From Helicobacter pullorum NCTC 12824 (GTDB taxonomy: Bacteria > Campylobacterota > Campylobacteria > Campylobacterales > Helicobacteraceae): a stretch of 64,000 nucleotides of DNA. The notes under the pieces were generated by a model that was not told the origin of the DNA, did no database searches, and saw only the letters and a list, made by a program, of their open reading frames with translations. The DNA is taken from contig NZ_JAERIT010000005.1 in assembly GCF_017979475.1 (NCBI RefSeq), forward strand, positions 62,001 through 126,000. Reading direction: 5' to 3'. Shown one piece after another: positions 58,793 through 64,000 of the stretch. The stretch's first letter is position 1. The number at the start of each line of letters is the position of its first letter. Made by a program: the position numbers and the translations under genes.

Positions 58793-59009
58793 CTTTATTA
58801 ATATACTTTTTTGGGGATATTGCTATAAAATTTATTTTTGCAAATACAATATTAAGAAGAATCCATCATGCTAAATTATAAATTTGTTATCACAGGGGAA
58901 ATGGCTTGAGAAATTGAGTGATTTTAGAGGCTTGTTATCCTTGTGTTATGAGCGTTTGATGGATTTGAGAAGTTTTTGTAGTGGGCTAGGGTGCATGGAG
59001 ATTATTATA

Positions 59010-59027
59010 TTTTGCAAGGTTGCAAAA
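59010..59027. terminator. Inverted repeat between converging cmoA and broken acetyltransferase
   Basis: TTTTGCAA and TTGCAAAA flank GG, giving a perfect 8-base dyad in the convergent gap. As a hairpin it would be TTTTGC-(AAGGTT)-GCAAAA, short and AT-rich. It could be a weak bidirectional terminator. Confidence 0.3.
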
Positions 59028-59035
59028 TCAAAATT

Positions 59036-59540
59036 TTATATTTGACTTTGCTTATTCCATTCCTTTTTTAATATTGCAAATTGCATTGTGTTTTCATATA
59101 AAGGTGTGCCATCAGGATTGTTAATAAATGAAATAAACTCTCTAAATAAGCCTTCTTGTCGCATACCTAATTTTTCACAAAGACGCTGTGAGCTTATATT
59201 GTAATCTTCAACATAGACATAAATGCGTCTTGCATTCATATGATTAAAAAGATAATCCAAATATGCCTTAGCAGATTCATAGGCATAACCTTTTCCGCAG
59301 TAATTTGGCAAAAAATTCCAGCAAACACTAAAGGTATCTTTTTCCCAAAGCCCAAATAAATTGCCGATAAATTCGTTGGTATGTTTTAGACATACAGCCA
59401 ATTCTCAAACCATCATTCTTATCTTTTTTGACGAAGATTTCATTGCGCGCTTCCTCAAGATTTTCTATTTTATCTTGTTTGAAACAGTGCACTTTTGGGT
59501 TATTGAGAAGTTTGAAATATGCTTCAAGATTAGTTTGCAC
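59036..59540 (-). pseudogene. RimJ/RimL-type GNAT acetyltransferase, broken by a frameshift
   Basis: The first frame (59540 to about 59404) gives MQTNLEAYFKLLNNPKVHCF...KNDGLRI. The second (from about 59401) continues AVCLKHTNEFIGNLFGL, CGKGYAYESAKAYLDYLF and RIYVYVEDYNISSQRLCEKLGM, the acetyl-CoA site and C-terminal motif of RimL-like acetyltransferases. Joining them needs one base removed near 59403. Together they would make a normal protein of about 168 residues. Mutation or sequence error; the substrate is unknown. Confidence 0.72.
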
Positions 59541-59651
59541 AATTACCCAATGATTAATCTTTTTACCTAAAATTCAATTTTTCCCATTTTGATTCTGCTT
59601 TCAATTAATATAGCTTCAATCATATAAATACAAAATTATTTTTGGTATGGC

Positions 59652-60629
59652 TCACTCCCATTCTATCGTGCCCGGTGGTTTTGAGGTGATGTCATAGACT
59701 ACGCGATTTATGCCCTCAACCTCGTTTATGATTCTATTTGAGACAGATTCTAAAAACTCGTGTGGCAGATGAGAAAAGCTTGCTGTCATGCCATCTAGTG
59801 CCTCCACTGCTCGTACGCAAATCGTATTATCATAAGTGCGGTTATCGCCCATTACTCCGACACTCCTCACATTAAGTAGCACACAAAATGCCTGCCATAC
59901 GCTATCATATAGCCCCCACTTGTGTAATTCCTCGATAAATATAGAATCTGCCTCGCGTAACAAATCCAAATCCTCTTTTGTAACCTCGCCCATTATACGT
60001 ATAGCTAGTCCGGGTCCGGGGAATGGGTGTCGCATAAGCATAGATTCTGGCATTCCTAATTCTCGCCCCAATGCCCTCACTTCATCTTTGAAAAGCTCCC
60101 TTAGCGGCTCGATAAGCTCAAACTTCATCCATTCTGGTAGTCCGCCTACATTGTGATGAGATTTTATCGTCTTAGAAGGTCCTTTTACGCTCACAGATTC
60201 TATCACATCAGGGTAGAGTGTGCCTTGTGCTAGGAATTTTATCTCGCCATTTGTGTTGTGCTTTTTTGCTTCCCTTTCAAAAACCTTGATAAAGGTCTCG
60301 CCGATGATTTTGCGTTTAGTCTCTGGGTCTCTCACGCCTTTGAGTAGCCCCAAAAACTCCTCACTCGCATCTACTGTTATTAAAGGCACTTTGAGATTGT
60401 CTCTAAACATCTTCTCTACCGCCTCTCTCTCGCCCTTACGAAGTAATCCGGTATCGACAAAAATCGGGATAAGATTCTCCCCGATAGCTCGGTAAAGCAA
60501 GGTCGCCACTACACTAGAATCCACCCCACCACTCACGGCACAAAGTACCTTGCTTGGGGTCGGCTTTTGAGTGCTTGTTGTTTTAGTAGAGGGCGTTGTC
60601 TCTTTTAAATTTGATAGTATTTCTTGCAT
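59652..60629 (-). CDS. guaA: GMP synthetase, ATP-pyrophosphatase and dimerisation half
   Basis: Carries out the ATP-dependent half of XMP to GMP. The 325-residue product starts with about 26 low-complexity residues rich in Thr, Lys and Pro. The ATPase half then begins at [14 protein letters not shown] (PP-loop) near residue 28, with PGPGLAIRI near 195 and the proper C-terminus [12 protein letters not shown]. The amidotransferase half is a separate gene at 62293-62970. An AAGGA site six bases before its ATG shows that it is translated on its own. Confidence 0.92.
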
Positions 60630-60631
60630 TC

Positions 60632-60700
60632 TTAGTCCTTAAATGAAATTTGATATTGTATCGTTTTGCTTGTTGTTTGCATAGTTTTATATGCTTTCAT
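60632..60700 (-). CDS. 22-codon reading frame with strong ribosome site directly before guaA second half
   Basis: Encodes [20 protein letters not shown] plus two residues. AAAGGAG at 60706-60712 lies five bases before its ATG, the best ribosome site in this area. Its stop is two bases before the start of the ATP-pyrophosphatase gene, and its last codons contain that gene's AAGGA site. It could be a leader peptide coupling translation, or a leftover of the insertion that split guaA. No homolog is recognised. Confidence 0.45.
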
Positions 60701-60754
60701 AACTGCTCCTTTAATAACTTGTGAATCTTTGTATCATCACTTCTTTATCTTGAG

Positions 60755-62296
60755 TTACCTACTTCTATCTTGTTTTGTTTGTGGGATTTTATAAGGTTTA
60801 TACATTAAGCACGCATTGTTTATAGATTCTCTATTCTCAACAAACTCTGTGGCTTTGCATTCAAAGATATAATGCATTAAGTCTTTGCCCTTATAGTTTT
60901 TGATATTTTCGCCAATTATGCGTCCGCCAAGCTTTCTAGCCACACGCATAGAGGCGAAATTATCCTCCTTGATGAGGCAATACAATCGCTCTAAGCCCAA
61001 AACCTTAAAGGCATACTCTTGCACAGCCCTTGCTGCCTCTGTGCCTAGCCCTTGTCCCCAAAATCTTTTTGCCACGATATAGCCTATCTCGACAATTTCT
61101 TGTTTTACTATGCTCTTTTGATTTGTGAGATTAATGCTCACTCTATCTAGCCCTGCATTGCCAATGATTGTCCCACTAGCCTTATCAATGATAGCCCAAA
61201 TCCCAAAGCCATTTTCTTTATAGCCTCTTAACTGCTTCTCTAGCCATTCTTTGCTTTCATCAATGCTAAAGCCATGCCCCCAAGCATACATTGTCTCTTT
61301 ATCGCTTAGAATCGTATGCAAGGCAGGCAAATCCTCTAGCGTGTATTCTCGCAACTTCAAGCGGTTAGTCTCCAAGATATAGGGAGTCTTTGCGCTATTT
61401 TGCGTGATTCGCTCATCTTTTTTGGAAGTATTGCGTTGGGCATTTTCTCTATGAAACGCACAAGTAATCAAGTGGTCGCACACTAGCCCGATAGATTGCA
61501 TATACGCATACATTCCCACACTTCCCACAAAGCTAAAGCCACGCTTTTTTAAATCCTTTGCTATTTTGTCTGAAAGAGGCGTGCGGGTGGGAATCTGAGC
61601 TAGATTCTTAAAAGCATTCACGATAGGCTCACCTCCCACATAACTCCAAATAAACCTATCAAAGCTACCAAACTCCTCTTGCACTTCCAAAAACCGCTTG
61701 GCATTGTTAATTGCAGATTCTATCTTGGCACGATTGCGGATAATCTTAATATTTGCCATAAGCTCGGCTATTTTCATAGAATCATACTTTGCCACTTTTA
61801 TTGGGTCAAAATCATCAAATGCCTCTCTAAAAGCCTCCCGCTTCTTTAGTATCGTAATCCACGAAAGCCCCGCTTGCATACCCTCTAGCACAAGCTGCTC
61901 AAAAAGTCGCTTTTCATGGTGTTGCGGTACTCCCCATTCAAAATCGTGATAGTCTTGATAGAGTTTTTGTGTATCTTTATCGGCAGTGTTGTAGCCCTGA
62001 TAAATCCAATCACAACGTTGCATAGGCGTTGGCTTTTGGGTAAAAGGCTTGTCTTTTAACGATAAATCGTGGATTACTTCGGTTTGGCTTTGGTCATTTA
62101 TGTCTAATAAACTCCCTCGCCTCGCCTTGTTTCTGCTTACAGTGATGTGAAGCGAAGCGGAACGAAAAAACCCCGATTTCTCATCTAAAATACTTCGCCC
62201 ACTAGGGTTACCATTTTCACAATCTCCGCAAATTCCTACTACCTGCGAATTTTTAGAATCTGCAGATTCTGTATTTTTAGAATCTCTCAAAATCAC
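60755..62296 (-). CDS. tag: Fusion of 3-methyladenine DNA glycosylase I (Tag) and GNAT acetyltransferase
   Basis: The 513-residue protein has three parts. Residues 1-91 match no domain. Residues 92 to about 285 are Tag: MQRCDW, YHDFEWGVP, EGMQAGLSWITILKKREAF and CDHLITCAFH supply the zinc cysteines and histidines of the E. coli enzyme, which removes 3-methyladenine from DNA. From about 305, LETNRLKLREYTLEDL and KRFWGQGLGTEAARAV form a RimJ/RimL acetyltransferase. It lies between the two halves of guaA, starting GTG with a 4-base overlap; TTG at 62290 is better spaced from AGAGGGG. Confidence 0.85.
   Translation of the reverse strand: MILRDSKNTESADSKNSQVVGICGDCENGNPSGRSILDEKSGFFRSASLHITVSRNKARRGSLLDINDQSQTEVIHDLSLKDKPFTQKPTPMQRCDWIYQGYNTADKDTQKLYQDYHDFEWGVPQHHEKRLFEQLVLEGMQAGLSWITILKKREAFREAFDDFDPIKVAKYDSMKIAELMANIKIIRNRAKIESAINNAKRFLEVQEEFGSFDRFIWSYVGGEPIVNAFKNLAQIPTRTPLSDKIAKDLKKRGFSFVGSVGMYAYMQSIGLVCDHLITCAFHRENAQRNTSKKDERITQNSAKTPYILETNRLKLREYTLEDLPALHTILSDKETMYAWGHGFSIDESKEWLEKQLRGYKENGFGIWAIIDKASGTIIGNAGLDRVSINLTNQKSIVKQEIVEIGYIVAKRFWGQGLGTEAARAVQEYAFKVLGLERLYCLIKEDNFASMRVARKLGGRIIGENIKNYKGKDLMHYIFECKATEFVENRESINNACLMYKPYKIPQTKQDRSR
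62255..62270. repeat. 16-base perfect palindrome with flanking direct repeats
   Basis: AGAATCTGCAGATTCT is its own reverse complement. TTTTTAGAATCT occurs at 62250-62261 and again at 62274-62285. These lie in the part of the tag fusion gene that codes for no recognised domain, right at the guaA break. They may be a trace of the insertion. Confidence 0.45.
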
Positions 62297-62970
62297 CCCT
62301 CTTGTGAATTTGTAGATTCTAACCCTGTGATTTTGCGAATCTTTTCTATCTCATAGGCGATGAAATTTTTCATATTCCAATCGGTATTAGCGTGGCAGAT
62401 TTTCACTGCAAAATTCTTTAAGATTTCTCCGCCGCACTCGCTATGCACGACTTCTGGGTGAAACTGCAAGGCATAAATTTGGCGATTAAAATCAGCCATA
62501 ACGCAATAATGCGTGTTGCCAGACTTTGCCAACTCGTTAAAGCCAGACGGTATTTGCTCGACTTTATCAGCGTGGCTCATCCACACGATAGAATCTTGCT
62601 TGACATTGGCAAATAAGGGCGTTGAATCTTTGGCTAAAATTTCTAACCTCGCTTTGCCAAATTCCTGCTCCTTTGCCCTTATTACCTTACCGCCGAAGTG
62701 ATAAGCGATGTATTGCATACCATAGCAGATTCCAAGCACTGGCACTTTTAAATCAAAGATCTTAGAATCTGGCTTATAAGAATCCTTTTCATACACAGAA
62801 GCAGGACCTCCGCTTAATATTATGCCCTTAGGATTTTTTGCTTTTATTGATTCTATTTTTTCAAAATACGGCACGATTTCGGTATAAACTCCAAATTCAC
62901 GCAGTCGCCTAGCGATAAGCTGTGTGTATTGACTCCCAAAGTCTAGGACTAAAATTTGGACTTGATTCAT
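62293..62970 (-). CDS. guaA: GMP synthetase, glutamine amidotransferase half
   Basis: Releases ammonia from glutamine for GMP synthesis. The 225-residue product has ILVLDFGSQYTQLIARR at the start, the nucleophile in LGICYGMQ near residue 82, and FHPEVVHSECGG near 169 completing the catalytic triad. It ends YEIEKIRKITG plus nine residues, exactly where the normal protein would run on into the PP-loop domain. In bacteria this is normally one chain with the ATP-pyrophosphatase; separate subunits are the archaeal arrangement. Confidence 0.92.
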   Translation of the reverse strand: MNQVQILVLDFGSQYTQLIARRLREFGVYTEIVPYFEKIESIKAKNPKGIILSGGPASVYEKDSYKPDSKIFDLKVPVLGICYGMQYIAYHFGGKVIRAKEQEFGKARLEILAKDSTPLFANVKQDSIVWMSHADKVEQIPSGFNELAKSGNTHYCVMADFNRQIYALQFHPEVVHSECGGEILKNFAVKICHANTDWNMKNFIAYEIEKIRKITGLESTNSQEG

Positions 62971-63214
62971 AGATTCTCACTTTTTGTATAATTTTGGCAT
63001 TTAAGTTTTGTAATTATAGCTAATATTGCCTTAAGTTAAGGCTGTGGCTATAAATGCTTAATAAGAATTTATCAAGTTTAAAATATAAAGCATATGGGAT
63101 TGAAAAATTATTATTAATGTATGGAAACAAAGGATTTAATGAAGCTAGAGATATTTGCAAGGATTAATTAAAAAAATAATAGAATGCGATTTTGGTTTGT
63201 ATTATTTTAAATTT

Positions 63215-64000
63215 TTAAGTAAGAATCTTTGCACTCACCCATAATCCAAAAAGTGCAGCACACAGCACACAAAGCGTAATGATACAAGCAAAGCTTAGGT
63301 AGGCTAGTAGTGAGATTTGCACACCAGAGATTTTAAGCTTTAGTAGAAAGAGTAGGGTAGCAAGCGAGCCTATGGGTGTGAGTTTTGAGCCGATATTGCA
63401 ACCAAGCAAATGGGCAAGGGCAAGGGTGGTTTGGTGCAGTGAATCTAGCTCAAAAGATTGCAAAGTGAGATTACCCAAAAGCACCATAGGAAGGTTGTTT
63501 GCTATGCTAGAACCCAGACTTGAAAACAGCCCAATGCTAAAAATCTGCACAAACAGCGGTGCGGATTCTATGCTCCCAAAAATAGCACGCATAGATTCTA
63601 TAAATCCTGCATTTTTCACACCAAAAACTACTACAAACAACCCAAAGCTAAAAATTATGACCGAAATGGGTGTTTCTTTGAGTAAAGTAGAGATCTTAAT
63701 AAGGCTGAAAGTTGCTCCATAGCATAGAGCTATCGCACTTGTAAAAAACAAAACAACATACAAAGGCACACCGAATTTTTGTCCGATAGCTATGCTCATT
63801 AAAAGAAAAATAATAAGGGTATAGCATAGAGCTAGTGTCGTTTTGGAGGGGGGTTTAGGATTGTGGGTAGTTGTGGATTGTGGGCTAAAGTGTAGCGTGC
63901 GTGGGAGAAATTTCCTAAAACACAGCCATGTGATACCCACAAAGGCAAGCAAACCAAAGACTTGAGGCAATGCCATCATCAATGCAAAATAAGTAAAATC
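63215..64000 (-). CDS. ArsB-like anion permease, partial at the window edge
   Basis: At least 261 residues of a membrane protein with about seven helices. SSIANNLPMVLLGNLTLQSF and LAHLLGCNIGSKLTPIGSLATLLFL match the C-terminal half of ArsB/ArsB-NhaD transporters, which export arsenite. The frame stays open to base 64000, so the N-terminal half lies outside; the apparent starts at 63982-63976 are internal. No arsC or arsR is in the window, so arsenite as substrate is inference. Confidence 0.75.
   Translation of the reverse strand, partial: DFTYFALMMALPQVFGLLAFVGITWLCFRKFLPRTLHFSPQSTTTHNPKPPSKTTLALCYTLIIFLLMSIAIGQKFGVPLYVVLFFTSAIALCYGATFSLIKISTLLKETPISVIIFSFGLFVVVFGVKNAGFIESMRAIFGSIESAPLFVQIFSIGLFSSLGSSIANNLPMVLLGNLTLQSFELDSLHQTTLALAHLLGCNIGSKLTPIGSLATLLFLLKLKISGVQISLLAYLSFACIITLCVLCAALFGLWVSAKILT

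Follow-up and report, generated by a model that had tools for sequence, protein, structure and literature searches.

A guaA gene split around a Tag-GNAT fusion in Helicobacter pullorum and the mobility of guaA in Helicobacteraceae

GMP synthetase is a two-domain protein in bacteria and eukaryotes and a two-subunit enzyme in many archaea (PMC10526850). As described in the sections of that article on the two-subunit form, the ATP-pyrophosphatase (ATPPase) on its own can use ammonia, and the subunits associate transiently, helped by substrates (PMC10526850). The enzymes of M. jannaschii and P. horikoshii resemble the one considered here in that the glutamine amidotransferase (GATase) and the ATPPase are separate proteins with the same folds (PMC10526850). 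Unlike in the archaeal enzymes, the two halves reported here are of bacterial type, with bacterial GuaA models as their best NCBIfam matches; the GATase half scores 176.5 bits with the archaeal-type subunit A model NF001975, below its cut-off of 198, and a Tag-GNAT gene lies between the halves. An insertion in the GATase is known from Plasmodium falciparum GMP synthetase, where it measures 32 residues (PMC10526850). It is short compared with the whole GNAT domain found in Helicobacteraceae GuaA and may lie in the same loop; the best stretch shared by the P. falciparum enzyme and the N half studied here covers only residues 5-116, next to site A.

In Helicobacter and Campylobacter, Kojima and Kobayashi (2015) found the gene of GMP synthase directly followed by a restriction-modification (R-M) pair of the PabI family (PMC4615327). 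They described the transfer of guaA with such genes from Helicobacter to C. upsaliensis, and one Campylobacter case in which only a C-terminal GMP synthase fragment lies upstream of the R-M genes (PMC4615327). The loci analysed here are similar in having R-M genes immediately 3' of guaA and a transfer of guaA to Campylobacter. That paper, in its passages on GMP synthase, concerns a single R-M family and a single transfer (PMC4615327). The loci studied here involve many R-M families and most of the sampled genera, and tail-separated arrays, R-M genes in the linker, GNAT and Tag inserts and split genes go beyond that case. R-M genes beside guaA and guaA transfer are already known in this one instance; a central metabolic gene as carrier is unusual. 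No report of split guaA, inserted domains or exchange on this scale was found in the open-licence literature. For H. pylori, Nobusato et al. reportedly described in 2000 how R-M genes insert with long target duplication. There, long repeats of a host-gene end flank the R-M genes, and the guaA 3' tails found here may be comparable; no such repeats were found around the linker inserts, and no extra guaA 3' tails in the window.

The split guaA locus of H. pullorum

The window is the whole stretch of 64,000 nucleotides of H. pullorum NCTC 12824 that was analysed. Its minus strand, on which all features below lie, carries three intact ORFs in three reading frames: guaA-N, a Tag-GNAT gene and guaA-C. 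The GATase half, guaA-N (62293..62970), encodes 225 aa with Cys82 and an HPE motif at 171-173, and matches Pfam GATase with 168.8 bits and TIGR00888 with 262.1 bits against a cut-off of 172.15. Its C-terminus is KIRKITG followed by nine residues, LESTNSQEG, and its stop overlaps the start of the middle ORF by 4 bases. The ATPPase half, guaA-C (59652..60629), follows the middle ORF after a gap of 125 bases. It starts with ATG at 60629, six bases downstream of an AAGGA (60636..60640) that by consensus is a likely ribosome-binding site, and encodes 325 aa with the PP-loop SGGVDSS at residue 33, matching Pfam GMP_synt_C with 151.2 bits and TIGR00884 with 491.4 bits against a cut-off of 338.75. Its first 26 residues form a Thr/Pro-rich leader, after which GuaA sequence resumes at [13 protein letters not shown]. 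Nothing of GuaA is missing, since guaA-N covers positions 1-212 and guaA-C positions 213-512 of the single-chain model NF000848 (512 positions).

The middle gene (60755..62296) encodes a Tag-GNAT fusion of 513 aa. Its start is GTG at 62296, with TTG at 62290 as an alternative. A leader of about 93 residues (62018..62296), which has no Pfam match, is followed by a Tag domain, 3-methyladenine DNA glycosylase I, at residues 94-280 (61457..62017) and a RimL/SpeG-like GNAT domain at residues 308-473 (60878..61375). The Tag part matches Pfam Adenine_glyco with 258.8 bits (cut-off 25) over residues 109-281, and scores 205.4 bits with the NCBIfam tag subfamily TIGR00624, below the cut-off of 232.5. 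Its conserved motifs are present. The GNAT part matches Pfam Acetyltransf_3 with 119.3 bits (cut-off 25.4) over residues 312-458. A genome search found one Tag, the one at this locus.

The initial annotation had described a GMP synthetase split into two genes around a 513-residue Tag-GNAT fusion, cut at the linker with nothing lost, the first half ending nine residues after KIRKITG and the second resuming after a short Thr/Pro-rich leader; the ORFs, Pfam domains and NCBIfam models bear this out. Nor was a second, single-chain guaA found in the genome (26 contigs, 93% complete), which gave one GMP_synt_C match. Between the halves no terminator-like site was found on the minus strand, a scan of 59000-64000 gave no Rfam match, and promoter-like sites in 59400-63300 were as frequent as in shuffled sequence (10 against 9.7).

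As judged from their sequences, these halves are best read as a two-subunit GMP synthetase. GuaA-N would hydrolyse glutamine and pass the ammonia to GuaA-C, which would adenylate and aminate XMP. The two would meet in trans in the manner of the archaeal subunits, and may associate transiently with the help of substrates, as two-subunit enzymes do. Tag-GNAT would be a passenger outside the catalytic cycle, acting separately in alkylation repair and acetylation. With good confidence, we regard the locus as probably encoding a working two-subunit GMP synthetase with Tag-GNAT as cargo between the halves, and as one of the forms taken by a guaA gene that moves across Helicobacteraceae.

Elsewhere in the genome, 58 bases of the middle-ORF leader recur at 86% identity at G000:C24:40622-40679 (L045), inside a 715-aa ORF whose start is dehydrogenase-like; they could belong to a dispersed repeat entering coding frames. 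Directly 3' of guaA-C, a GNAT-like gene is present as two overlapping ORFs of 121 and 70 aa (59036-59540, minus strand) and is probably a remnant.

Exchange of guaA between genera

In Helicobacteraceae guaA is mobile: it has been exchanged between genera, lies at differing chromosomal places, carries GNAT and Tag domains in frame at two sites and has gathered R-M genes. Exchange was measured as the number of genus-label changes on gene trees, with two control genes, recA and guaB. For the same 59 genomes the recA tree follows genus with 8 changes, the minimum, against 37 in the PPase (ATPPase half) tree; labels shuffled on the recA tree give 36.8 on average. The GATase tree needs 31 changes for 57 genomes (shuffles 35.9, with a value as low in 3 of 200) and the Tag tree 21 for 36 genomes (shuffles 20.4), against 8 and 7 for recA in the same rows. 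The gene of the preceding enzyme, guaB, behaves like recA, with 6 changes each for guaB and recA and 20 for PPase in 30 genomes.

Poor tree signal was rejected as the source of the scrambling, because starred branches alone force 14 changes (g1) and 9 each (g5, g3). Misbinned contigs were rejected as its full cause: in the 35 genomes whose guaA lies on a contig no shorter than 100 kb, recA needs 7 changes and PPase 21, and neither this result nor the named-species records of H. mesocricetorum and H. aurati are explained by misbinning. On contigs of at least 300 kb (20 genomes) the counts are 7 and 12. The scrambling is not total, since a 78-row PPase tree needs 46 changes against 53.8 in shuffles and neither the H. 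pylori group nor the pair of g10 rows is broken up.

Single pairs of genomes show the same disparity in DNA identity. PPase, recA and guaB are 99.3, 73.4 and 68.0% identical between H. mesocricetorum and H. aurati, 98.8, 75.5 and 69.1% between H. apodemus and G079, and 93.6, 75.3 and 68.3% between the window and G070. Synonymous divergence along the locus is strongly uneven between the window and G070 (dS 0.98 for GAT1, 0.04 for GNAT), so that the locus is a mosaic. Among 58 same-genus pairs, upstream neighbours are homologous in 4 for guaA, 20 for recA and 49 for guaB. The guaA value indicates that the gene also changes place, and the recA value that gene order is loose in Helicobacteraceae anyway.

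Outside Helicobacteraceae, among the matches listed, the Campylobacter-family genome G152 has a Helicobacter-type guaA of 906 aa with a GNAT at each insertion site. As in other Campylobacter, its neighbour is uvrC; the 1.76-Mb contig also carries the recA of that genome, in which no second GMP_synt_C was found. No plasmid record matched at least 80% of the Helicobacter guaA PPase query (59 records gave weaker matches), and none matched the middle gene.

Restriction-modification genes at guaA

R-M genes collect at the guaA linker and behind its 3' end. Behind guaA of H. aurati lie four R-M pairs: a Tsp45I-type endonuclease with a methyltransferase, a methyltransferase with an HNH enzyme, a C5 methyltransferase with a HaeII-type enzyme, and a methyltransferase with a CfrBI-type enzyme. 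Between successive pairs stand guaA 3' tails of 262, 214 and 118 bases. Such tail-separated cassettes accompany guaA in several species. From the Tag part of guaA on, H. mesocricetorum and H. aurati have 7.9 kb in common at 99.7%, and from the start codon on, H. apodemus and G114 have 8.7 kb in common at 96.9%; G079 resembles H. apodemus minus the R-M genes between two tails. The gene of G152 is followed by ICEA and a D12 methyltransferase, and that of G398 by a methyltransferase, a fused type I/II-like enzyme and a type I R subunit. At least 26 extra guaA 3' tails occur in at least 15 of 75 loci, counts that are lower bounds as 28 of the 75 have less than 2.5 kb downstream.

Tail-separated arrays of R-M pairs were seen (oriented, guaA on the plus strand) at L052 8689-17000, L088 8122-16253 and L033 7327-13469. 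In four loci (L026, L041, L080 and L088) the frame of a methyltransferase-type ORF runs on into the GuaA C-terminal peptide and ends with it. Upstream of the full gene, pieces of the guaA 5' end are present at L055 927-1112 and L096 1887-2183 (oriented); that at L055 is followed by genes resembling R-M pairs, and insertions may duplicate the 5' end too.

Genomic islands are known to sit at guaA in other bacteria, and the extra 3' tails look like attachment-site duplications. Both would fit a site-specific integrase that places R-M islands at the 3' end of guaA, with guaA moving along, but the tails vary from 36 to 296 bases with no common inner boundary, no integrase or transposase family was found in the 20 cassette ORFs scanned, and the exchange also covers the N half and the linker; we consider this explanation unlikely. 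Because no recombinase was present among the scanned ORFs, exchange of guaA is instead likely to proceed by homologous recombination, which would act over conserved guaA sequence after DNA uptake.

Domain inserts and split loci among relatives

Outside the H. pylori group, 60 of 69 related loci encode single chains, of 515-2285 aa. Recognised domains occur in 43 of these 60 at two fixed sites: GNATs in a GATase loop, and GNATs or Tag in the linker. In 51 of the 60, the GATase or the linker is longer by at least 40 residues. These shares refer to the fetched loci; ten other genomes of the family, not of the H. pylori group and with ordinary frames of 514-536 aa, are not among them. The long H. 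hepaticus GuaA that the initial annotation mentioned fits this pattern, with a frame of 1391 aa (1375 aa from the second Met) in G073, which may be H. hepaticus ATCC 51449. An AlphaFold model of the fused N-Tag-C GuaA of G003 had a mean pLDDT of 66, with values below 50 across much of Tag, and was disregarded as poor. A free-standing double-GNAT gene lies directly 5' of guaA in H. burdigaliensis and H. valdiviensis (L027 4539-5546 and L042 3925-4920, oriented).

Seven loci have separate halves: that of the window (G000) and those of G013, G065, G070, G083, G118 and G398. In four of them the halves are separated by R-M-type genes. These are an N6/N4 methyltransferase, a BsaWI-type endonuclease and an ORF below the methyltransferase cut-offs in G013; a DUF6996/DUF6997 protein and an N6/N4 methyltransferase in G065; a C5 methyltransferase and a Bpu10I-type endonuclease in G118; and a D12 methyltransferase and an unnamed 202-aa ORF in G083. 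G070 has a GNAT, a 155-aa ORF and Tag-GNAT, and G398 a 162-aa ORF on the opposite strand between the N half and Tag-GNAT. A gene of 155-171 aa between the halves was seen at L061 4538-5053 and L065 4841-5308 (oriented), the L061 copy being without a Pfam match.

The Tag-GNAT product might also be a third subunit or a regulator that links or modifies GMP synthetase within one complex, for example by sensing damage or acetylating GuaA. Tag over the cut-off was found in 15 of the 19 congeneric genomes searched, in all 15 within the guaA locus, and GNATs recur at both GuaA sites, as one complex would predict. Yet the four congeners without Tag have intact GuaA, combinations of domains change freely between loci, and R-M genes stand in the same place in four of the seven split loci, as cargo would. 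We therefore think a single complex improbable and retain Tag-GNAT as a probable passenger.

Since six other assemblies have separate halves, four of them with R-M genes between, the split in the window is not an assembly slip. Catalytic motifs are conserved throughout: GxCYG is present in 72 of 72 loci, QFHPE in 75 of 77 (QYHPE in the other two), SGGVDSS in 71 of 75 (SGGVDST in the other four), and the Tag motifs in 34 of 38, one of the four misses being a contig-end cut. Against G398, G070, G065 and G013, dN/dS of the window is 0.03-0.08 for PPase, 0-0.13 for the GATase parts, 0.13-0.18 for Tag and 0.22-0.59 for GNAT, the value of 0.59 being that against G070, with few changes. The intact motifs and purifying selection agree with the earlier view that both halves are probably functional. 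On the basis of this selection and of the split relatives, an assembly error or a pseudogene was rejected. That a fused GuaA was broken by real or sequencing frameshifts, leaving GMP to salvage, is very improbable: the three frames follow in close succession, close relatives G003-G005 encode fused N-Tag-C proteins and the Tag region of G083 consists of overlapping short ORFs, but independent assemblies are also split with unrelated genes between the halves, both halves are under purifying selection, the motifs are intact, and guaA-C has a good ribosome-binding site. In four genomes of the H. pylori group (G036, G047, G045 and G022; L104, L105, L106 and L107), guaA is broken into overlapping frames, which may be real or assembly faults.

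In the PPase tree six of the seven split loci form one clade (support 99/95), and G118 lies in a different clade among fused genes, so that separate halves arose at least twice and one form is present in several genera. The window's five clade-mates comprise a Campylobacter-labelled assembly and members of its own genus and of three further genera of Helicobacteraceae. Part of this cross-genus spread could be misbinning, since three of the six other split loci (G065, G070 and G398) are in records titled metagenome-assembled genomes or uncultured bins of other genera. The upstream ORFs of G398 have no match to seven compared Campylobacter loci. The initial annotation had proposed that an insertion at the linker created a two-subunit enzyme. 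The split is real and two subunits remain the best reading, but a one-off insertion into an ordinary guaA does not hold: the PPase half clusters with five other split loci, and relatives already carry inserts. This clustering indicates that the split was inherited or imported as such. An insertion may have separated the gene, or a giant fused gene may have broken. R-M insertion in the linker would separate the genes, and loss of the insert could rejoin them in frame. A search for long direct repeats around the linker inserts gave nothing convincing, the window having only a weak 27-base repeat of 78% before Tag and before PPase.

A wider reading, which is tentative and against which we lean slightly, sees guaA in Helicobacteraceae as the carrier of a cassette system that works without an integrase. 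Genes for R-M, acetyltransferases and repair would dock in the linker, in the GATase loop and behind the 3' end and spread with it across genera, including Campylobacter, leaving giant and two-subunit enzymes. The guaA tail on 3' cassettes would permit docking at another guaA, and the working GMP synthetase would be the part that cannot be lost.

Among close relatives, these loci provide natural bacterial GMP synthetases in one-chain, domain-inserted and two-chain states, and the role of the linker and of association in trans in ammonia transfer becomes directly testable with Helicobacteraceae enzymes. For phylogeny, guaA is unsuitable as a marker in this family. It is a central metabolic gene that behaves as a mobile element with defence cargo, and it offers a testable model in which R-M systems persist by sitting in or behind a gene that is hard to lose.
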